Part shown: positions 3,048 to 20,454 of the stretch, one piece after another | How positions within the stretch are numbered: the stretch's first letter is position 1 | How the letters are laid out: the number at the start of each line of letters is the position of its first letter | NCBI RefSeq assembly: GCF_000220985.1 | Contig: NZ_AFRW01000015.1 | Coordinates: 1-64,000 of the forward strand | Source of the DNA: Nesterenkonia sp. F | Lineage (GTDB): Bacteria; Actinomycetota; Actinomycetes; Actinomycetales; Micrococcaceae | Direction: 5' to 3' | Length of the DNA stretch: 64,000 bases | The notes under the pieces: model-generated | Told to the model about the DNA's origin: nothing | Seen by the model: only the letters and a program-made list of their open reading frames with translations | The model's database searches: none | Position numbers and translations under genes: made by a program

Positions 3048-4024
3048 TCAGCTCTTCCGGGCGGCGACGGCGGCGTCGTAGAGCTCGCGGGAGGTCGTCC
3101 CGTGCTCGGCGGCGACCTCCTTGGCCGCGGCCTTGACCTTCTCACCGGCTTCGGCGCGGCGCAGCACCGCGGCGACCAGGTCCTCGTGGGAAGGAGCCGC
3201 GCGCTCCTCGGCACCGCCGATGACCAGCACCACCTCGCCGCGCAGCTGCCGGGAAGCGGTCTGCTCGGCCAGCTCGGCGAGGCTGCCGCGCAGCACCTCC
3301 TCGTGCTTCTTGGTCAGCTCCCGGCACATCGCGGCACCGCGTCCGCCGCCGAGCTGTTCGGCGCATTCGGCCAGCGTGGCCGCCGTGCGATGCGGGGACT
3401 CGAAGAGCACGGTGGTCCACTCCTCGTCCGCCAGCCGGCGCAGCAGCCGACGGCGGTCGGCGCCCTTGCGCGGCATGAACCCGGCGAAGGTGAATCGATC
3501 GGTGGGCAGGCCGGAGAGCGCCAGGGCGGTGGGCACCGCCGAGGCTCCGGGGCCGCGGTGACCTCCACTCCCGCCTCGACGGCGGCGGCGACCAGCCGGA
3601 AGCCGGGGTCGGAGACGGCCGGCATCCCGGCGTCGGAGACCACCAGCACCCGGGTTCCTGCGGCGGCCTGCTCGACGACCTCCGCGGCGCGGGAGGCTTC
3701 ATTGTGCTCGTGCAGGCTGACCAGCCGCCCGGCCGGGCGCACGCCCAGTGCCCGGCAGAGGTGCCGGGTGCGGCGGGTATCCTCGGCGGCGATGATCTCG
3801 GCGGTGCCCAGCAGCGCGCGCAGCCGCGCGCTGGCGTCGGAGAGATTGCCGATGGGGGTCGCGGCGAGCACCAGCGGCACGTCCCAGAGCCCGGAGGGGG
3901 CGGCGTCGGCGGTATGACCGGCGGTGTCATCGGCCGTGTCGTCGGCGCGGTCGGCCGGCGCGCCCTCCGAGGCCTCGTCGTGCGGCCCGCCCCGGAGCTC
4001 GTCCTGCGCGTCGTGGTCGGACAT
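3048..4024 (-). pseudogene. rsmI: 16S rRNA 2'-O-methyltransferase RsmI, frameshifted as sequenced
   Basis: RsmI methylates the ribose of C1402 in 16S rRNA using SAM. The first frame, from ATG 4024 (GGAGG 8 nt upstream), runs through [29 protein letters not shown] and [13 protein letters not shown], then becomes [12 protein letters not shown]. The expected continuation ([20 protein letters not shown] to ELYDAAVAARKS) lies in the next frame. Adding one G to the GG at 3548-3547 restores a P-G-A-S-A motif and one 325-residue protein. The N-terminus carries an acidic, low-complexity extension of about 45 residues before the conserved domain. It is divergent from the O-mannosyltransferase gene, the same pairing as in mycobacteria. 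A single missing G in a short G run is most simply a sequencing error. Confidence 0.88.
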
Positions 4025-4130
4025 GGCGGCGGCCTCCATCGGCGGGCGGGGGTGCGGGAGCGTTCCGGAGATGCGGTGCGACGTCGCGACCGTCCGGAGT
4101 GGGAGCGCCGAGGTCTCGGAGCTCGCCACG

Positions 4131-4136
4131 TAGCAT
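4131..4136 (+). promoter_or_regulatory. -10 element of the O-mannosyltransferase gene
   Basis: TAGCAT followed by 7 nt and GTG 4144, predicting a leaderless mRNA. Confidence 0.55.
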
Positions 4137-4143
4137 ACCCATC

Positions 4144-5853
4144 GTGACCCGCCAGACTCCCACCGTCGCCGCGACGGACCGCGCGACGTCGACCGAGGCC
4201 GCCGTCGGCTCCCGGCGCGCGCGGCTGCTCCGTCGGCTGGGCGCAGAGCCCTTCCGCCCGGGGCTGTGGGGCGTCTGGATCCCGGCGCTGGTGACGATGC
4301 TCGCCGCCGCGCTCCGCCTGCCGGGGCTGGCGCGCCCGCACGAGCTCATCTTCGACGAGACCTACTACGCCAAGGACGCCTACGCCCTGCTGCAGGCCGG
4401 CTACGAGCTCTCCTGGCCCGACGAGGCCGACGACGCCTTCCTGGCCGGCTCCCCGGCTCCGCAGGACGAGGCTTCGTTCGTCGTCCATCCGCCGCTGGGC
4501 AAGTGGCTCATCGCGCTGGGCATCCGAGCCGTGGGCGCGGATTCCGCCGTCGGCTGGCGGATCGCCTCGGTGGTCGCCGGGGTCCTCGGCGTGCTGCTGG
4601 TCGCGCTGATCGCGCAGCGGATGTTCCGCTCGGTCTTCCTGGGCGGGGTGGCCGGCGTGCTGCTGGCCGTGGAGGGTCACCATCTGGTGATGAGCCGGGC
4701 GGCGCTGCTCGACATCTTCCTCTCGCTGTTCGTGCTGGCGGCCTTCGGCGCGCTGCTGGCCGATCGCTGGCAGGGACGACGGCGGCTGGCCGAGCTGCTG
4801 TCCCGCGAACCGGAGGCCGGAGGCGTGGGCGGCGGATCCTTCCGGAGCCGCCGCGGTCCGCTGCTGCTCTGGCGCCCGTGGCGGCTGGCGGCCGCAGTGC
4901 TGCTGGGCTGCGCGACGTCGGTGAAGCTCTCGGCCCTGGCCTTCGTCGCCGTCTTCGGCGTCATGGTCGTGCTCTGGGATCTGCAGGCGCGTCGCGCGGC
5001 CGGACTGCGCGGCTGGCCGAGCGCCGGGCTGCGCGACGGACTGCTGGCCGTGGTCACCGTGCTGCCGCTGGCCGCCGTCACCTATACGGCCACCTGGACC
5101 GGATGGCTGGTCACCTCCGGCGGCTGGGGGAGGGGCTGGCATCTGACGCATCCGGCCGAGGGCATCGGGCAGCTGGTGCCCGGGCCGCTGCGTTCGCTGT
5201 GGCAGTACCACGTCTCCATCCTCTCGTTCCACGAGGGGCTCAGCGACGGGCACGACTACGCCTCCTCGCCCTGGACATGGCCGTTCATGGGGCGTCCGGT
5301 GTCGATGCACTACGAGTCGATCGAGGCCGGGTCGTCGGGCTGCGGCGAGGCGGCGTGCTCGCAGGCGGTGCTCGACCTGGCGAATCCGGTGATCTGGTGG
5401 GGCGGGCTGGTCGCGCTGCTGGTCGTCGTCGCGCTCTGGCTGGGGCGTCGGGACTGGCGCCACGGGGCGATCCTCTCCGGGATCCTCGCCGGTTGGGCGG
5501 TCTGGCTGCTCTTCCCTGCCCGGACCATGTTCTTCTTCTACACCGTCGCCTACGAGCCTTTCCTGATCCTGGCGCTCGTCGCCGTCGCCGCCCTGGTGAT
5601 GCGCCGCGGAGCCGCCCGCGCCGGCGGGGTGGACGCCGTCCGGGCCGCCCGCGCGGCGAGCAGACGGCGCGGGGGACGACGGTCCGTGGATCGCCCCGGG
5701 GCCCTCGGTCCGCTTCAGCGTGCAGCGGCGCTCGTGCTGGTCTTCGTGCTGCTGGCGACGGCGGCCTCGATCTTCTTCCACCCGATCTGGACAGCGGAGC
5801 TGATCCCGACGGACCAGTGGCGATGGCGCATGTGGCTGCAGTCCTGGGTCTGA
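4144..5853 (+). CDS. Protein O-mannosyltransferase (PMT family, GT39)
   Basis: Polytopic membrane enzyme that transfers mannose from polyprenyl-phosphate-mannose to Ser/Thr of secreted proteins. The 569-residue protein has a cytoplasmic basic N-terminus, a first membrane segment ([15 protein letters not shown]), and the acidic loop [19 protein letters not shown], whose Asp-Glu pair is the family signature. Repeated hydrophobic segments follow (for example [32 protein letters not shown]), with [15 protein letters not shown] and the P-Y-x-W-type region [16 protein letters not shown] 4144 is chosen because it starts 7 nt after TAGCAT. Neighbouring rsmI is a conserved partner. It should act co-translationally with Sec export. 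Confidence 0.9.
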
Positions 5854-13457: not shown

Positions 13458-15098
13458 TCACTCGGCGGCGAGCACCGTGCGCACCGCCAGGTGGTCGGAC
13501 GGAAAGTCGTTGTCCTGATGGTCAGGGATGTGCCGGCACACGCCGCCGAACTCCACGAAGCCTTCGTCGGCCGGGGCGTCCTCGGCATCGGCCGCGCCGC
13601 CGAGGTGGTCGGCGGCGAGCACGTCGAGCCCGCGCACGTAGACGAAGTCGATGCGGTCGCGCGGCTCGTCGTCCAATGTGTGGATCTGCGCCCAGGAGCG
13701 CCCCGGTGCGCGGCGCGGGTCCGGGTGCACGATGCGGAAGGCGTCGGCGTAGCCGGCGTCGACCAGCCGGCGGGTCGCCGGCCAGTCGACCGCAGGGCGG
13801 TCTGCGCCGTCCCAGTCGACGGCGGAGGGCACGTTGAAGTCGCCGGCGATGATGACCGGCATCGAGCCGTGCTGCTCGAGCAGTCGGTCCGTCTCCTCCA
13901 GGACGCGCTGCGCCTGTCGGTCGCGGGCGACCTCGCCGGACTGCGCGAAGACCTCCTCGCTGGCCGCGGGCAGCTCGTCGGCGCGATAGGGGCCGTAGTC
14001 CTCGGGAGCCAGATGCACCGACCAGGCCAGCACCTGGCCGGCGGCAGTACCGACGACGGCCGCCGTGGCGTAGGGGGCGGTGTCGGTGGTCAGCAGCTGA
14101 GCGGGCCCGGTGCTGAGCACCGCGTTGTCCCAGGACTGCTGCGCGACGGTCATCCCGAGGGTGCGGCCCAGCCGGCCGCCGGCGTCGCCCCAGCATTCCT
14201 GGAGGAACAGCAGGTCCGCCTGCTGCTCGCGCAGCACGTCGACCTGCTTATGGCGGCCGTTCTCGACCTCGGCTCCGCCGAACCAGAGGTTCCAGCTGAT
14301 CAGGCGCAGAGTCGGACGGTCGGTCTCGGCGGTGAGTGCGGTGACAGGCATGGTCTCCTCCAAGGAGCGGGCGGATCGGTCGGCGGAACGGGTGGGATCG
14401 GTCGGTCGCGTCGGGAGGACGTCCAGCCCGACCAGGGAGTCGATTCGGTGGCTGCAGGGCATCGTGGCCTCCTCGGCGTCGACGCCGACGACGGTCATAC
14501 CCGCCGCGCGGGCCGCCTCGGCCCCGGCGACGGAGTCTTCGAAGGCCACGGTCCGGGACGGGTCGACGTCCAGGGCCCGGGCCGCGGCCAGGTACACGTC
14601 CGGTGCCGGCTTGGCCGCGTCGACGTCGTCCAGCGTCCGGACGACGTCGACGAGCTCGAGCAGCCCGACGTCGGCGAGCATCGCGGCGACGTCGGCCCGC
14701 AGGCCGTTGCTGGCCACGGCCACCGGGACGCGGCCGACGAGGGCGCGGACCAGAGCCACCGCCCCGGGCATCGGCGTCACGCCGGCGGCCAGCCGGGCGG
14801 AGTAGTCCTCGACCAGGACGTCGCGCAGTTCGGCGACGGGTTGGGTCTCCCGGCTCCGGGAGGCCAGGCGTGCCGCGGCGTCGCCGACGTCGAGTCCGCG
14901 GAACTGTCCCGCGGCCTCGACGGCGGCCGTCGCCGAGAGTCCCAGCCGGCGGTGCTGCTCGGCGATCAGCTCCAGCCAGACCGACTCCGAATCGACCAGC
15001 AGGCCGTCGCAGTCGAAGACGACCGCCTCGGCGTCCAGGAGGAACTCGGGGGAGCGGGACGAGATGATGGCGATGCCGCGCGGGGCCTCGGCGCTCAT
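13458..15098 (-). CDS. HAD-family phosphatase fused to an endonuclease/exonuclease/phosphatase (EEP) domain
   Basis: One open frame of 546 residues carries two complete enzymes. Residues 20-215 are a beta-phosphoglucomutase-like HAD hydrolase: nucleophile motif VVFDCDGLLVDSES, VAVASNG, lysine motif AAKPAPDVYL, and FEDSVAGAEAARAAGM. Residues 250-546 are an EEP phosphodiesterase: ISWNLWFGG, LFLQECWGD, VHLAPED, IIAGDFNVPS, DRIDFVYV and PSDHLAVRT, so all metal-binding and catalytic positions are present. GGAGGAGACC stands just before an in-frame ATG at 14351, so the EEP domain may also be made alone (297 residues). The start overlaps the ATPase gene by 4 nt. Together the domains could cleave a phosphodiester and then remove the phosphate from a ligand imported by the linked transporter. 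That is inference; the substrate is unknown. Confidence 0.85.
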   Translation of the reverse strand: MSAEAPRGIAIISSRSPEFLLDAEAVVFDCDGLLVDSESVWLELIAEQHRRLGLSATAAVEAAGQFRGLDVGDAAARLASRSRETQPVAELRDVLVEDYSARLAAGVTPMPGAVALVRALVGRVPVAVASNGLRADVAAMLADVGLLELVDVVRTLDDVDAAKPAPDVYLAAARALDVDPSRTVAFEDSVAGAEAARAAGMTVVGVDAEEATMPCSHRIDSLVGLDVLPTRPTDPTRSADRSARSLEETMPVTALTAETDRPTLRLISWNLWFGGAEVENGRHKQVDVLREQQADLLFLQECWGDAGGRLGRTLGMTVAQQSWDNAVLSTGPAQLLTTDTAPYATAAVVGTAAGQVLAWSVHLAPEDYGPYRADELPAASEEVFAQSGEVARDRQAQRVLEETDRLLEQHGSMPVIIAGDFNVPSAVDWDGADRPAVDWPATRRLVDAGYADAFRIVHPDPRRAPGRSWAQIHTLDDEPRDRIDFVYVRGLDVLAADHLGGAADAEDAPADEGFVEFGGVCRHIPDHQDNDFPSDHLAVRTVLAAE

Positions 15099-16159
15099 GC
15101 CGGGACCCGCTCGGCGGCCGATGCCGCGGCCGGCAGGCGCAGCGCCGGCTCGTCGAGGACATGCGGGATCACTCGGGTGCCGGGGACGAGGTCGGCGGCC
15201 TCGGCGGCGGAGACCGAGCTGATCAGCTCCGGGCCCTCGTCACCGGAGGCGCGGACGATGGTCCGCTCGCCGGTGAACGTCTGGGAGACCACAGTGCAGG
15301 TGCCCTCCGCCGCGGGGCTCAGCGTGAGGTCCTCAGGGCGGACGAACAGCGTGTCCAGGCCGTGGGCGGGCCCCTGCACCGGCAGCGCGCCGCGGGTGAA
15401 GGAGGGATCGGCCCCGAGCCGGGTCACCGTGCCCACGAACTGGGCGACGAACTCGGTGGCCGGTCGGCGGTAGATCGTGCGGGGCTCGTCGACCTGCTCG
15501 ATCACCCCGCCGTTGAGCACGGCGACCCGGTCGGCGATGGCCAGCGCCTCCTCCTGGTCGTGGGTGACGAACATCGTGGTGATGCCCAGCTGCTGCTGCA
15601 GCCGGCGGATCTCCTCGCGGATCTGGTGGCGCACGATGGCGTCCAGGGCCGAGAGCGGCTCGTCGAGCAGCAGCACCGAGGGCTGGACGGCGAGCGCGCG
15701 GGCCAGCGCCACCCGTTGCTGCTGTCCGCCGGAGAGCTGGTGGGGGTAGCGGTCGGCCAGCTGCGGCAGGCCGCACATCTCCAGCAGCTCCTCGGCGGTG
15801 CGACGGCGCGCTTCGCGCCGGACGCGGCGCACGCGCAGTCCGTACTCGACGTTCTGCCGGACCGAGAGGTTCGGGAAGAGGCTGTAGGCCTGGAAGACCA
15901 TGCCGATGTCCCGGCGGTTCGGGGCGACGGCGGTGAGGTCCTTCCCGCTGACCAGCACGCGGCCGGTGGTCGGCTTCTCGAAGCCGGCGAGGATCCGCAT
16001 CGCAGTGGTCTTGCCGCAGCCCGAGGGACCCAGCACCGAGACCAGCTCGCCGGCGGAGATGTGCAGGCTGAGGTCGTCGAGCACTGTGGTGGGGCCGAAG
16101 CGCTTCGTGATGCCGTCGAGGACGACGGCGTTGTCCTGGGTGGTGGTCGTGCTCATCAT
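15095..16159 (-). CDS. ABC transporter ATP-binding protein (PotA/FbpC/PhnT-like)
   Basis: The 354-residue ATPase powers the importer encoded upstream. Walker A GPSGCGKTT, Q-loop GMVFQAYSLFPNL, signature HQLSGGQQQRVALARAL, Walker B VLLLDEPLSALD and switch VTHDQEEALAIADRV are all present. After residue 240 comes a TOBE-type regulatory domain (RPEDLTLSPAAEG). Domain layout matches the iron/polyamine/2-aminoethylphosphonate class. Two ATG codons lie in tandem; the first overlaps the upstream permease stop by 4 nt. The stop overlaps the HAD-EEP start by 4 nt, which ties expression of the enzyme to the transporter. Confidence 0.93.
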   Translation of the reverse strand: MMSTTTTQDNAVVLDGITKRFGPTTVLDDLSLHISAGELVSVLGPSGCGKTTAMRILAGFEKPTTGRVLVSGKDLTAVAPNRRDIGMVFQAYSLFPNLSVRQNVEYGLRVRRVRREARRRTAEELLEMCGLPQLADRYPHQLSGGQQQRVALARALAVQPSVLLLDEPLSALDAIVRHQIREEIRRLQQQLGITTMFVTHDQEEALAIADRVAVLNGGVIEQVDEPRTIYRRPATEFVAQFVGTVTRLGADPSFTRGALPVQGPAHGLDTLFVRPEDLTLSPAAEGTCTVVSQTFTGERTIVRASGDEGPELISSVSAAEAADLVPGTRVIPHVLDEPALRLPAAASAAERVPA

Positions 16160-17157
16160 CGGGTCACCTTCTCGGGGTCGGCCTGCTCACAGGTGGGTGA
16201 GTGCGGGGCGTGGGCGCGGGTGCGGTCCTCGGCAGATGAACCGTCGGGGGAGGGCCCGTCCTCGGCGTCGTCGGCGGAGGTCTCCTCGCCGGTGCCGCCG
16301 GTGCCGCCGGAGCGGCCCGGGGCGAATCGCTGGGTGGCGAGGGTGCCGATCAGCATCAACCCCCAGGTGGTCAGGTTCAGCAGGACCGCGACGGCGATGG
16401 AGGCCCGGAAGTCTGTGTTCGAGACGGTGAACAGCCAGACCGGCACCGTGTCCTGGCTCAGCGTGGCCGCCACGGAGAACTCGCCGAAGCACAGGGCGGT
16501 GGTGAAGAAGATCGAGAACAGCACGGGGCCGCGGATGTTGGGCAGCACCACCCGCAGGATCGTCCCCCAGGTGCTCGAGCCCAGGCTCGCCGATCCCTCC
16601 ACCATGGCCTTCAGCGGGATGGTGCGCAGCCCGGCGTCGATGGAGCGGAAGGTGAACGGCAGGCAGAGCACGACGTAGGTGCCCACCAGGATCAGCGGCA
16701 GGTCCGGATGCTGGACGAACTGGCTGATCGCATTCGGCAGCGTGCCCCGCCCCTGCTGGGCGCCCCACCGCAGCAGGGAGACGATGCCGGCGGCCAGCGC
16801 GATCGCCGGGACGACCAGCGGCAGCGTGCACAGGATCTCCAGCACCGGGCGCAGCCGCGGGGCCCAGAGATGCACGGCGACGACGGCGGGCACCAGCGTC
16901 AGCAGCAGCGCGACCACGGTCAGCACCGCCACGGTGACGGTGCGTCCGGCCGCCGAGAGGAGGCTGGCGTCGTCGCCGAGCACCGAATAGGCGCTCAGCG
17001 AGAACGACCAGCCGGGCAGCACGGCGTAGCCGATGCTGCAGAGCAGCGGCACCGCGATGTAGATCGCGACGGCGAGGACCGGCAGCCACATGGTGGCGCG
17101 GCCGCTCCGCCGGGCGAGGGTCGGGCGGTCGTGCGGGACAGGGGTCACTGCAGCCAT
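16156..17157 (-). CDS. ABC transporter permease, second subunit (PhnV/PotC-like)
   Basis: A 333-residue inner-membrane permease with about six membrane segments (first: WLPVLAVAIYIAVPLLCSIG). The EAA loop that contacts the ATPase reads EGSASLGSSTWGTILRVVLPNI. I start it at ATG 17157 because GAGGAGGAGC lies just upstream and it overlaps the first permease gene by 13 nt. A longer upstream frame exists but would be out-of-frame readthrough of the other permease. The C-terminal 60 residues after the last membrane segment are acidic and low-complexity (GGTGGTGEETSADDAEDG), unusual for this family. Confidence 0.9.
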   Translation of the reverse strand: MAAVTPVPHDRPTLARRSGRATMWLPVLAVAIYIAVPLLCSIGYAVLPGWSFSLSAYSVLGDDASLLSAAGRTVTVAVLTVVALLLTLVPAVVAVHLWAPRLRPVLEILCTLPLVVPAIALAAGIVSLLRWGAQQGRGTLPNAISQFVQHPDLPLILVGTYVVLCLPFTFRSIDAGLRTIPLKAMVEGSASLGSSTWGTILRVVLPNIRGPVLFSIFFTTALCFGEFSVAATLSQDTVPVWLFTVSNTDFRASIAVAVLLNLTTWGLMLIGTLATQRFAPGRSGGTGGTGEETSADDAEDGPSPDGSSAEDRTRAHAPHSPTCEQADPEKVTR

Positions 17158-18050
17158 CGAGCGCTCCTCCTCTGCAGACGGGTGAACAGGAACAGCACGA
17201 CGACGGCGATGACCACCATGGTCACGCCGAGGGCCATGGCCGTGGCCTCCCCGCCGGTGCTCGCCCCGGAGCGCAGCTCGGAGGCGATGGTCAGCGGGAC
17301 CAGCGGGTAGACGCCGGTGCCGATGAGCACTGCTGCCGAGGCGTGGGTGGCATAGGCTGAGCCGACCAGCAGGATCCAGCCGCCCAGCAGCCCCGGTGCG
17401 GCGACCGGCAGCCCCACGCGACGCCAGAAGGTCCAGGAGGATCCGCCCAGGGCGGTGTTGGCCTCGCGCCACTGACGGCGCAGTCCGGCGAAGGTCGGCA
17501 ACGTGACCATCACCATGGTGGGGATCAGGAAGTACTGGTACATCACCACCAGGCCCTGCCAGCTGTAGAGCGAGAAGCCCGTCGCATCGAGATGCAGGAG
17601 GCTGAACAGCAGTCCCGCATTGCCCAGCGTGACGATGAAGGAGAACGCCAGCGGCGCCCCGCCGTCGTTGGCCAGCACCGAGGACAGCACGGCGACGACG
17701 GAGTCCAGCCGACGGCTGCGGATCTGCGAGATGCAGAAGGAGGTCACTGCGCCGATGGCCGCGCCCACGGTCGCGCCGATCAGCGAGACGCGGGCGGAGT
17801 TTCCCAGGGCCTCGGCATGGTCGGTCAGATCGGCGAAGTGCGTCAGCCCCGCCCGGGCCGCGCCGGAGGGTCCCTCGACGGTGAAGGCGATCAGCGCCAT
17901 GCCGCCGATGGGCAGGGCGAAGAAGAGCAGCAGCACCAGCGTCATCGGTGCCAGCGAGACCACGGCCGGCGAGCCGAGGCGGCTGAGCAGTCGCCCGCCG
18001 CCGGACCGGGCGCCGGCGGCGGAGTCGGTGGGTGTGGTCGCCGAGCTCAC
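17145..18050 (-). CDS. ABC transporter permease, first subunit (PhnU/PotB-like)
   Basis: A 301-residue membrane protein with the binding-protein-dependent transport fold. Membrane segments include LAPMTLVLLLFFALPIGGMA near the N-terminus, and the EAA loop reads EANTALGGSSWTFWRRVGLPV. I chose GTG 18050, whose GTGA overlaps the lipoprotein stop. Another GTG six codons upstream at 18068 is possible. It forms a heterodimeric channel with the product of 16156-17157. The separate permease genes are typical of the iron/2-aminoethylphosphonate/spermidine class. Confidence 0.9.
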   Translation of the reverse strand: MSSATTPTDSAAGARSGGGRLLSRLGSPAVVSLAPMTLVLLLFFALPIGGMALIAFTVEGPSGAARAGLTHFADLTDHAEALGNSARVSLIGATVGAAIGAVTSFCISQIRSRRLDSVVAVLSSVLANDGGAPLAFSFIVTLGNAGLLFSLLHLDATGFSLYSWQGLVVMYQYFLIPTMVMVTLPTFAGLRRQWREANTALGGSSWTFWRRVGLPVAAPGLLGGWILLVGSAYATHASAAVLIGTGVYPLVPLTIASELRSGASTGGEATAMALGVTMVVIAVVVLFLFTRLQRRSARWLQ

Positions 18051-19189
18051 TGGATGGCTCCCGACCACTGCTCCTCGAGCACCTTCTGGTTGGCCTCGCG
18101 CTGGGCCAGCGTCGGGATCTCGCCGGCGATGCCCTCGTCGGAGGGCAGCGCGTCCAGGGCCTCCTGGTCGATGGTGCCGGCCTCGATCATCGCATCCAGG
18201 CGTACGGGGGTCACCGCGCCCTCGAGCAACAGGTTCTGGCCCTCGTCGGAGAAGAGGAACTCGTAGAACAGCCGGGCCACCGCCGGGTGCGGGGCGTCGT
18301 CATTGATCGAGGCCGCGTAGAACGAGGAGATCCGGCCGTCCTCGGGCAGGGTGATCTCCAGTTCGATGCCGGAGTCTGCCTGCAGGTCCTCGGCGATGGG
18401 CTGCAGCAGGTAGTCCCAGTTGAGCACGATCGGCGTCTCGCCGGTCTCGATGGTCCCGGCGCCGGCCTCGACGGGGATGAAGTTGCCGCCGGAGGAGAGC
18501 TCGGAGAAGAACTCGACGCCGGGCTCGATGTCGTCGAGGCTTCCGCCGTTGGCCAGCGCGGCGGCCTGGACGATCATGAAGCCGGACTCTCCGGTGGTCG
18601 GGTCGCCGGGGATGGCGACCTGGCCCTCGTACTGCTCGTCGAGCAGATCTTCGAAGGAGGTCGGGCACTCCTGGACGCGGGAGGTGTCGCAGCCGATCGC
18701 GACGGTCCCGCCCAGGTGATTGATCCAGGTGCCGTTCTCCCCGATGTGCTCGTCGGCGATGTCGTCGACGCTCGCCGGGCTGTATTCGGCCAGCAGGCCG
18801 TCGGCGTCGGCCTCCTCCGCGAAGCTGGTGCCGGTGTCCAGATAGTCGAGCGAATCGTCCTGTCCCTGACGATTGACCACGGCGTTGATCAGGTCCTGGC
18901 TGGATCCGGTCGAGGTGTCGTTGACGATCTCGATGTCGTACTTCTCGGAGAAGGCCTGCAGCAGGCCGCCGTAGTTCGCCCAGTCCTCGTAGAGGCCCAT
19001 GGCGTTGAACGTGCCCTCGGCCTGGGCGTCCTCGATCAGTTGCTCCATGCCGCCGCCGTCCTCGGCGGAGGTGGCCTCGCGCCATCCTTCGGAGGCCGCG
19101 CCCTCACCTCCTCCGCAGGCGGTCAGCCCCAGGGTCGCGATGGTCAGCGTGCCGAGCAGCGTCCGCGTCGTCGTGCGCATCGTCCTCAT
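18047..19189 (-). CDS. ABC transporter substrate-binding lipoprotein
   Basis: Extracytoplasmic solute-binding protein of 380 residues, anchored by lipid. The N-terminus has twin basic residues, a hydrophobic core and the lipobox LGLTACGGG. The body resembles the iron/spermidine/2-aminoethylphosphonate cluster: YEDWANYGGLLQAFSEKYDIEIVN, DTGTSFAEEADADGLLAEY, VAIGCDTSRVQECPTSFEDLL and PTTGESGFMIV. It is Asp/Glu-rich, which suits a salt-tolerant host. ATG 19189 is the first of two close starts (the other is 19180). It is the first gene of a fully overlapping five-gene operon. Its ligand decides the role of the operon and cannot be assigned from sequence. Confidence 0.88.
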   Translation of the reverse strand: MRTMRTTTRTLLGTLTIATLGLTACGGGEGAASEGWREATSAEDGGGMEQLIEDAQAEGTFNAMGLYEDWANYGGLLQAFSEKYDIEIVNDTSTGSSQDLINAVVNRQGQDDSLDYLDTGTSFAEEADADGLLAEYSPASVDDIADEHIGENGTWINHLGGTVAIGCDTSRVQECPTSFEDLLDEQYEGQVAIPGDPTTGESGFMIVQAAALANGGSLDDIEPGVEFFSELSSGGNFIPVEAGAGTIETGETPIVLNWDYLLQPIAEDLQADSGIELEITLPEDGRISSFYAASINDDAPHPAVARLFYEFLFSDEGQNLLLEGAVTPVRLDAMIEAGTIDQEALDALPSDEGIAGEIPTLAQREANQKVLEEQWSGAIQ

Positions 19190-19268
19190 CAGCGGTGTAC
19201 CAAGCCTTTCAGCGTCGTGGTGTCGAGTGTCGTCGCGCCGGACTCCGGCGGCGGCAACGAACACTATG

Positions 19269-19311
19269 TTCACTAGTGAAGTTGTGGGAGTCAAGTCTAA
19301 GGTCACTAGTG
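19269..19311. promoter_or_regulatory. Paired palindromic operator in the divergent GntR/ABC promoter
   Basis: TTCACTAGTGAA (19269-19280) is a perfect 12-bp palindrome, and its core CACTAGTG recurs at 19304-19311. The centres are 33 bp apart, about three helical turns. On the minus strand a -35-like TTGACT (19294-19289) lies between the two copies, so site 1 falls in the spacer/-10 region and site 2 just upstream of -35. This is the expected layout for repression by a dimeric GntR protein, and the gntR gene is adjacent. Confidence 0.75.
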
Positions 19312-19332
19312 GAAATGACGATCAGGGCACGC

Positions 19333-19338
19333 TACAGT
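19333..19338 (+). promoter_or_regulatory. -10 element of the gntR gene
   Basis: TACAGT about 158 nt before GTG 19496. It lies 22 bp from operator copy 2, so the regulator could control itself. Confidence 0.35.
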
Positions 19339-19495
19339 GGATCAGCGATGAACAGTTCTCGACGGCCCGGGTCCGCCGGGGGTCTCGTCGGGATCGGGCC
19401 GATCGGAGCCTCCGCGTACACTGGCCGACGACGTCGGGGCGCTGTGCGGGGGCGCCGTCGAGCACTGTCGTGATCGGTGACGAGGGGGAGATGAC

Positions 19496-20257
19496 GTGGG
19501 CGCATTCGCCTTCCGGCACATCGCCGAAGCTCTGCGCGAGGACATCCGCGGCGGCGTCGTCGGCGTCGGCGGCTCGCTGCCGTCGGAGCGCGAGCTCAGC
19601 CGCCGTTTCGAGGTCTCGCCGGGGACGGTGCGCGTGGCGCTGAAGGAGCTCGTCGCCGAGGGTACCGTGGACGGTACGCGCGGGCGGCCGAAGACCGTGG
19701 TGCGGGTCCCGCGCCCGAGCTCCAGCTTCGACGAGTTCCACAGCTTCGCCCAGTGGGCCCGCGGCCACGGCCGTGCTCCGGGCGGCCGCGTGGTGGAGAA
19801 GCGCTGGCAGATCGCCTCGGAGATGGACGAGACGCTGCTGCAGGCGGCGCCGGGGCGTCGGATCCTGGCGGTGACCCGCGTGCGCACGCTGGACGGGGAG
19901 ACGGTGATGCTCGAGCGGACCCACTACCCGGAGTGGCTCGGCGAGATCGTCGACGCGCTGCCCGACGACGTCGCCTCCGTCACGTCCCGGCTCGCCGACG
20001 AGCACGGAGTGCATTTCAGCCACGCCGAGCACATGTTCGGCGCCGAGGGGGCCAGGGCCAGGGATGCGGCGATGCTCGGGATCTCGCGCGGGACCGCGCT
20101 GCTGATGCACCGGCGCGTCTCCCGCGACCCCGCGGGTCGGCTCCTGGAGTGGGCGACCGACCGTTATATCTCCGGGCGGATCATGGTCTCGGTGGGAAAT
20201 TCGCGGAACTCCAACCCGCTGCGCTGGGCGCTCCCCGGCTCCGAGCCGGGGATCTGA
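19496..20257 (+). CDS. GntR-family regulator, HutC/UTRA type
   Basis: A 253-residue transcription factor. The winged helix (residues 5-70: FRHIAEALREDIRGG, LPSERELSRRFEVSPGTVRVAL) is followed by a UTRA ligand-binding domain (VTRVRTLDGETVMLERTHYP near 135, ATDRYISGRI near the end). UTRA regulators are released by small metabolites, often phosphorylated sugars or amines. GGGGGAG precedes GTG 19496. It is divergent from the transporter operon with two palindromes between, so it most likely represses that operon. PhnR, the regulator of 2-aminoethylphosphonate use in enterobacteria, is of the same type, which gives one hypothesis for the ligand. Confidence 0.88.
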   Translation: MGAFAFRHIAEALREDIRGGVVGVGGSLPSERELSRRFEVSPGTVRVALKELVAEGTVDGTRGRPKTVVRVPRPSSSFDEFHSFAQWARGHGRAPGGRVVEKRWQIASEMDETLLQAAPGRRILAVTRVRTLDGETVMLERTHYPEWLGEIVDALPDDVASVTSRLADEHGVHFSHAEHMFGAEGARARDAAMLGISRGTALLMHRRVSRDPAGRLLEWATDRYISGRIMVSVGNSRNSNPLRWALPGSEPGI

Positions 20258-20343: not shown

Positions 20344-20415
20344 TCCGCCCTGGTGTAATGGCAGCACGCCAGCCTTTGGAGCTGTGCAGTCTAGGTTCGA
20401 GTCCTAGGGGCGGAA
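20344..20415 (+). tRNA. tRNA-Gln (anticodon TTG)
   Basis: Acceptor TCCGCCC (20344-20350) pairs with GGGCGGA (20408-20414), discriminator A. The D arm is GTGTAATGGCAGCAC. The anticodon loop CTTTGGA has TTG at positions 34-36 and a stem CCAGC/GCTGT with one mismatch at its base. The T arm is CTAGG-TTCGAGT-CCTAG. CCA is not encoded. A tRNA-Gln directly before glmU is common in related genomes. Confidence 0.93.
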
Positions 20416-20454
20416 CGGCCCCGGCCCCAGGCTCCCGGATCGTCGGGTTCCCGA

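Follow-up and report, generated by a model that had tools for sequence, protein, structure and literature searches.

The 64-kb stretch of the Nesterenkonia sp. F genome analyzed here (hereafter, the window) contains five minus-strand genes, taken as an operon, to the left of two short operator-like sites, and a regulator gene on the plus strand to the right of them (Table 1). The operon comprises the components of an ABC transporter and a protein in which two phosphatase-type domains are joined. The regulator has the two-part architecture of the GntR/HutC group, namely an N-terminal GntR winged helix and a C-terminal UTRA domain. At approximately 20350–20420, 3′ of the regulator gene, lies a sequence resembling a tRNA, by eye one for Gln.

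Table 1. Genes and regulatory features at the transporter–regulator locus of the window
Feature	Position	Strand	Remarks
HAD phosphatase fused in frame to an endonuclease/exonuclease/phosphatase (EEP) domain	13458..15098	-	
ABC ATPase with TOBE domain	15095..16159	-	
ABC permease 2 (BPD_transp_1)	16156..17157	-	start by eye
ABC permease 1	17145..18068	-	no Pfam match; NCBIfam permease models below cut-off
Solute-binding protein (SBP_bac_6), lipoprotein by signal sequence (by eye)	18047..19189	-	start 19189 or 19180
Predicted -10 hexamer, GAACAT	19266..19271	-	17 bp from -35, overlaps O1; read from locus comparison
O1, proximal operator, TTCACTAGTGAA, perfect 12-bp palindrome	19269..19280	n/a	in -35/-10 spacer of transporter promoter, touching -10
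-35 hexamer of transporter promoter, TTGACT	19289..19294	-	between O1 and O2; read from sequence
O2, distal operator, GTCACTAGTGGA, perfect 8-bp core	19302..19313	n/a	5′ of -35 of transporter promoter
PHO-box-like pair of 11-bp units, GTTCATCGCTG ATCCACTGTAG	19332..19353	-	starts 42 bp upstream of O2 core; matrix match
GntR/UTRA (HutC-type) regulator, recognition helix SPGTVR (Pro42 versus NagR Arg48)	19496..20257	+	PF00392 and PF07702 above cut-off

O2 differs from the O1 12-mer at two positions and retains the 8-bp core, CACTAGTG, exactly. The cores start at 19271 and 19304, giving a spacing of 33 bp, which corresponds to 3.14 turns (at 10.5 bp per turn) and places the two sites approximately 50 degrees away from exactly the same helical face. 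An initial annotation, made from the sequence of the window, had described a 12-bp palindrome and an 8-bp core copy 33 bp apart, a TTGACT between them and an adjacent UTRA regulator gene, and all three elements were confirmed. Comparison with other Nesterenkonia loci placed the core promoter: TTGAC[TC] was conserved in position in 11 of 12 loci, starting 9 bp after the O2 core, and GA[AG]NAT was found at the -10 place in all 12, lying 17 bp past TTGAC[TC] and having the last base of the O1 core in common. The complete arrangement, TTGAC[TC]-N17-GA[AG]NAT overlapping O1, was observed in 11 of the 12. If transcription is assumed to start at about 19259, the centres of O1 and O2 lie at about -15 and -48. 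The -10 of this promoter is poor, and a promoter scan with a 9-of-12 threshold did not list the transporter promoter.

A genome search for further operator copies, proposed in the initial annotation, found CACTAGTG nowhere in the 2.81-Mb assembly (138 contigs, 93% complete) but at O1 and O2, and two or more copies of the word arose in 1 of 100 dinucleotide shuffles of the window. The 12-mer with up to two mismatches occurred at 6 places genome-wide, including O1 and O2, compared with 8 for a reversed-letter control; matches no commoner than the control give no sign of further strong targets in this genome, and a wider regulon in the source genome was rejected on these grounds and for want of a third CACTAGTG. 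The 8-mer alone is not always rare: the 30 Nesterenkonia genomes contained between 0 and 20 copies each. However, among the 34 CACTAGTG sites listed for eight regulator-less genomes of the genus (G002, G003, G004, G006, G008, G009, G010 and G012), no two were 100 bp or less apart, so that the signal is the conserved pair and not the single 8-mer. In G002, the control word GTGATCAC occurred 5 times, versus 78 to 203 times in each of the other 29 genomes of the genus, a pattern that looks like avoidance of GATC-containing words, perhaps caused by a restriction system.

The regulator was detected (E 1e-20 or better) in 12 of the 30 Nesterenkonia genomes searched, and each of the 12 carried the pair at exactly 33 bp, with two exact cores in nine and one exact plus one one-mismatch core in three; in one of these genomes (G015) the regulator gene is broken in its assembly. 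Three further loci (L023, L024 and L061) showed the same spacing, giving a 33-bp group of 15 loci, in which both cores were exact in 10 and one core had a single mismatch in 5. These three belong to Frigoribacterium sp. JB110 and Microbacterium halotolerans, with one one-mismatch core each, and to genome G543 of the same order, found by the two-box pattern, with two exact cores. More distant loci, found through the solute-binding protein, had spacings of 32 bp (ten loci) or 34 bp (one locus, L137), with at most three mismatches summed over both cores. Taken over all 26 loci, the spacing was almost constant and near a whole number of helical turns, at 33 bp in 15, 32 bp in 10 and 34 bp in 1. 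These 26 loci of the regulator group had been collected by protein similarity, and every one has the pair. Because the loci are related, some of them nearly identical, their number overstates the independent evidence; one contig that had been retrieved as L009, L051 and L022 was counted once. When each locus was subjected to 100 mononucleotide shuffles, with the spacing free from 20 to 59 bp, the observed match was reached in none of 100 in 25 of the 26 loci and in 4 of 100 at L137.

The search with the solute-binding protein returned 59 rows, 30 of them with loci that were looked at. In 13 of these 30, the divergent regulator lay within the flank retrieved (the window, L127 to L137, and L126, identical in place to L061); in the other 17, it did not. 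The exact two-box pattern occurred in 2 of 396 genomes of the order, which include only two of the genus Nesterenkonia, and both times at the present operon; a one-mismatch match (G494:C31) lay in a stretch without any of the genes of the operon. For regulators from other genera of the Micrococcaceae (at most 40% identity), 22 loci were examined and contained no CACTAGTG; of these, only L026 and L034 adjoin a solute-binding protein homolog. In practice, this operon can be recognized by CACTAGTG pairs with a spacing of 32 to 34 bp, which provide a defined candidate operator for a regulator group in Micrococcales. The open-access literature searched yielded no description of this operator or operon among the matches listed, and in the one paper that mentioned CACTAGTG together with GntR, CACTAGTG was part of a PCR primer. 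In one relative (L057, positions 3900–4400, genome G021), the operon ends early, after the first part of the solute-binding protein gene, and the regulator survives; there, one of the two cores carries a mutation and the -35 has been lost. This single case fits decay of the operator after loss of its target.

The position of the promoter relative to the pair was not the same in all loci. In nine of the ten loci with 32-bp spacing (L128 to L136, but not L127), the layout differs from that in Nesterenkonia: a TTGnnn-N17-TAnnGT promoter starts 7 bases past the downstream end of the proximal core, which would leave both boxes upstream of it. L015, L023, L024 and L061 have no -35 between the two boxes. 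These loci bear on the question of whether the two boxes function together. The boxes could be independent, each occupied by one dimer, with a spacing that merely mirrors the fixed parts of a promoter; in Nesterenkonia, the spacing does also fix the boxes with respect to the -35 and the -10. We consider this somewhat unlikely, since the 32 to 34 bp are kept where the likely promoter is elsewhere or has no -35. The layout over the transporter promoter is the one to be expected of cooperative repression.

We then compared the position of the pair with the starts of the two divergent genes. The distance from the pair to the start of the solute-binding protein gene was 79 bp on average (sd 20) in the 33-bp group and 109 bp (sd 9) in the 32/34-bp group. 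The distance to the regulator start varied far more (sd 47 and 88 bp, respectively), with the pair lying 57 to 468 bp from that start across the loci. Regression assigned 79% (33-bp group) and 99% (32/34-bp group) of the extra intergenic length to the regulator side of the pair. The position of the pair follows the transporter promoter and is not tied to the start of the regulator gene. In PMC4494728, the two sites of a constant-spacing pair are described as functioning jointly, and a pair close to one operon as controlling it. Comparison of the sequences makes control of the transporter by the adjacent GntR/UTRA regulator well supported.

The initial annotation had also raised the possibility of autoregulation. 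Control of both divergent genes, by the pair or by an extra box, is common in HutC divergons with constant-spacing double sites (PMC4494728), and an extra one-mismatch core, CACCAGTG, was found 70 bp from the regulator start in L128 and 64 bp in L129; a separate autoregulatory box is therefore possible in that lineage. In the other 24 of the 26 loci, including the window, the examined stretch 5′ of the regulator contained no further core with up to one mismatch. Autoregulation through the pair itself is disfavored, because the pair stays with the transporter start as the intergenic length grows, and, following the argument of PMC4494728, a constant pair would act on the operon that it lies close to. 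Repression of the regulator gene as well thus appears unlikely. Of the initial interpretation, the conserved pair of near-fixed spacing over the transporter promoter, with the neighboring UTRA regulator as its obvious ligand, was retained, and autoregulation through the pair was not borne out.

The second promoter geometry also has implications for the sign of regulation. Plain occlusion by O1 does not explain the promoters of the 32-bp group, where the same protein–DNA module may work by another route, e.g., by blocking an activator or by activating. The regulator could accordingly be an activator throughout, or have two modes, an occluding repressor in Nesterenkonia and an upstream-acting protein in the 32-bp group, where nine of ten loci have a better promoter 7 bases after the O1 core and the boxes upstream of its -35. 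We regard this as improbable: O1 in Nesterenkonia overlaps the spacer and the -10, which is a repressor position, and the closest solved relatives, NagR and DasR, are described as repressors (PMC4333415 and PMC4918961).

Upstream of O2, on the transporter strand, the window contains GTTCA repeats with an 11-bp period, which were first spotted by eye and tested afterwards. Actinobacterial PHO boxes are described in PMC4415409 and PMC7866108 as 11-bp direct repeats with GTTCACC. A reference set was assembled from the pstS genes of the genus (32 rows, of which 7 below the family cut-off were left out, giving 25 genes). GTTCA-type 11-bp repeats were present upstream in 24 of the 25 pstS regions; the region without a regular-expression match (L119) was excluded, and a 22-bp matrix was built from the remaining 24. 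The pstS consensus is GTTCACCnagc GTTCACC, with a further GGTCACCT unit starting 22 bp after the start of the second unit. In the 33-bp group, the best matrix match was located on the transporter strand, upstream of O2, in 15 of 15 loci (p 0 to 0.044, 500 dinucleotide shuffles each). The match in the window is the weakest of these 15 orthologous boxes, at 7.7 bits (p 0.032, 500 dinucleotide shuffles), versus 18.9 to 34.6 bits for the pstS boxes that trained the matrix. At this score there are 5 places on both strands of the 64-kb window, and 2.35% of random 315-bp stretches contain one. A PHO box of the genus type is thereby present upstream of the promoter in all 15 loci of the 33-bp group, weakly so in the window, as a Pho-regulon operon would have it.

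The PHO-box units were in 11-bp register with O2 in 14 of the 15 loci, where the match started upstream of the O2 core at a distance of 20, 31 or 42 bp, each equal to 9 bp plus whole 11-bp periods. In L010, this distance was 18 bp. The comparison of loci establishes the paired sites, their near-fixed spacing, their tie to the regulator and the transporter promoter, and a PHO-like box in register with them. In L016 and L061, the last PHO unit extends two bases into the O2 core, so that competition at O2 would be a direct expectation. These repeats beside the distal operator had been missed in the initial annotation, as had the orthologs with both boxes upstream of the promoter and the departure of the operator from the HutC norm described below. 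In the 32/34-bp group, a PHO-like match of at least 7.5 bits within 80 bp of O2 was found in only 4 of 11 loci, a count made with no shuffle control. Among the distant R-type loci, L026 (p 0), L034 (p 0) and L064 (p 0.016) had a PHO match and L063 had none (p 0.604). Four of the 17 solute-binding protein homologs with no neighboring regulator (L140, L142, L145 and L147) had upstream PHO-like matches of 12.6 to 17.3 bits, again with no shuffle control, which suggests phosphate control with no local repressor. A search of the genome with the PhoB model matched 23 places, none of them above the cut-off (best 241.4 versus 296.2 bits), and none was assigned as the PhoP gene. A genome-wide search for GTTCAY-N6-GTTCAY with one mismatch gave 38 forward and 48 reverse matches and lacked the specificity needed to delimit a regulon.

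The transporter subunits are similar to those of 2-aminoethylphosphonate systems yet miss the curated cut-offs. Identification as a 2-aminoethylphosphonate transporter was rejected, as the best NCBIfam scores were 62.3 versus 310 bits for the solute-binding protein and 378.8 versus 457.7 bits for the ATPase, and the permeases were also below; phosphonatase models matched the HAD protein only far below cut-off (31.8 versus 220 bits). An AlphaFold model of the solute-binding protein was too poor for use (mean pLDDT 41.5), and its best solved relative, 5t1p, is annotated merely as an ABC substrate-binding protein. The EEP domain had no PDB sequence match at E 0.01. HAD and EEP homologs follow the transporter in 12 of 14 relatives; the contig ends in L055 and the operon is cut short in L057. 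The two domains are encoded in separate frames in the two relatives inspected (L050 and L051) and in one frame in the window. HAD and EEP proteins after the transporter, together with the PHO box, suggest that an organophosphate, perhaps a diester, is taken up and cleaved, and the operon is probably a Pho-regulon organophosphate importer. In the regulator, Arg128 and Arg130 of the UTRA domain are invariant in 17 aligned sequences and align with Arg142 and Arg144 of DasR, which coordinate the phosphate of its effector (PMC4918961). A phosphorylated effector is plausible on the basis of this alignment.

Taken together, these observations led us to propose a model that we consider likely as a whole. 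The divergently transcribed GntR/UTRA regulator would recognize O1 and O2 as its operator pair, and two of its dimers, probably bound cooperatively, would repress the promoter of the ABC-transporter/phosphatase operon, O1 lying in the spacer and touching the -10 and O2 lying just upstream of the -35. Under phosphate scarcity, a PhoP/RegX3-type response regulator would occupy the PHO-box array just upstream of O2. Because the array lies close to O2, and overlaps it in some relatives, the repressor may in addition keep this activator off the DNA. Repression would be lifted by a phosphorylated compound that the system imports or releases, and high output would require phosphate starvation and substrate at once. 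Here we infer binding, cooperativity, repression, PhoP action and the role of an organophosphate as both substrate and effector. The model provides this importer family with a testable logic, in which phosphate starvation is combined with the presence of substrate.

The closest likeness, judged by analogy, is to the PhnF-phnDCE system of Mycobacterium smegmatis, for which PMC7866108 describes a divergent GntR-family repressor with two sites in a bidirectional promoter region and an ABC importer induced by phosphate limitation. The present transporter is, however, of another type (SBP_bac_6, two permeases, ATPase, and HAD plus EEP). The regulator scored 73.8 bits against the PhnF equivalog TIGR02325, far below its NCBIfam cut-off of 156.8, and 74 versus 296.75 bits against the PhnR equivalog TIGR03337, and neither assignment was adopted. 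The present system would work like PhnF-phnDCE and is no member of PhnF by curated score. As described in PMC3353115, Corynebacterium glutamicum pctABCD is likewise an ABC importer, thought to import phosphorus-containing compounds and raised in phosphate starvation; it is likened here by that description. The regulator shares its GntR plus UTRA architecture with NagR/YvoA and DasR (PMC4333415 and PMC4918961), and with DasR also the conserved arginines for the effector phosphate. The PHO box agrees in unit sequence and period with the actinobacterial box of PMC4415409 and PMC7866108 and with that at pstS of the genus, and differs from the usual one in being close to the operator of a local repressor and, in the 14 loci mentioned, in register with it. 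The kinds of parts are ordinary and known, but the sequence of the switch departs from the one usual for the regulator family.

HutC operators are usually GT-N4-AC, with the consensus GTMTAKAC, although exceptions are listed in PMC4494728. The present operator, CACTAGTG, is CA-N4-TG and so lacks this usual, non-defining form, while sharing the 8-bp frame with a central TA. C was found at -4 in 51 of the 52 boxes of the 26 loci. In NagR, Arg38 reads G-5 and Arg48 reads G-4 (PMC4333415). In an alignment with YvoA/NagR, Pro42 of the present regulator was opposite the Arg of the SRMTVR helix, which we take as NagR Arg48 on the strength of the alignment, and Arg32 was opposite Arg38. The operator has C-4 where that of NagR has G-4, and none of the 26 regulators with the pair has an Arg at the Arg48 position, Pro occupying it in 24 and Leu in L023 and L024.

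When a more distant regulator was used as the query, homologs were found in 34 of 394 genomes of the class (39 matches, 30 with loci), and the helix was read in 29 of the 30 loci (all but L160). The recognition-helix Arg was present in 29 of 29 helices, and a solute-binding homolog lay divergently beside the regulator in 26 of the 30 loci. Upstream of these Arg-type regulators, a candidate TTGT-N4-ACAA was found in 23 of 29 loci and was absent from the six others, and CACTAGTG was found in none of the 29. CACTAGTG was also absent from the four R-type loci L026, L034, L063 and L064, of which L063 has TTGT-N4-ACAA and the other three have another inverted repeat, by eye, with G at -4.

That the boxes bind some other factor, the regulator reading a different site, would account for their departure from GTMTAKAC but is very unlikely, given the 8-bp frame and central TA shared with HutC operators, the pair in each of the 26 loci of the regulator group, and the fact that operator type and recognition helix differ together. 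With the regulator retained as the ligand, the co-variation of operator and helix fits the loss of an Arg–G contact, a natural case in which a base-reading residue and the operator base that it reads differ together. As one clade contrasts with the rest, this probably reflects one evolutionary event. We tentatively suggest, as a possibility that falls short of the favored account, that the HutC-type repressor of one actinobacterial clade was re-coded, helix Arg changing to Pro or Leu along with GT-N4-AC to CA-N4-TG while the divergent order and the transporter were kept, and that the pair was then fitted to two promoter geometries, either over the core promoter in register with PHO units, or upstream of it, perhaps acting otherwise than by occlusion. 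Upstream of 11 of the 29 Arg-type regulators (L161, L168, L170, L171, L174 to L176, L180 to L182 and L184), a longer palindrome, ACTTGT-N4-ACAAGT, was observed, and this sequence is a likely operator of a wider actinobacterial family.
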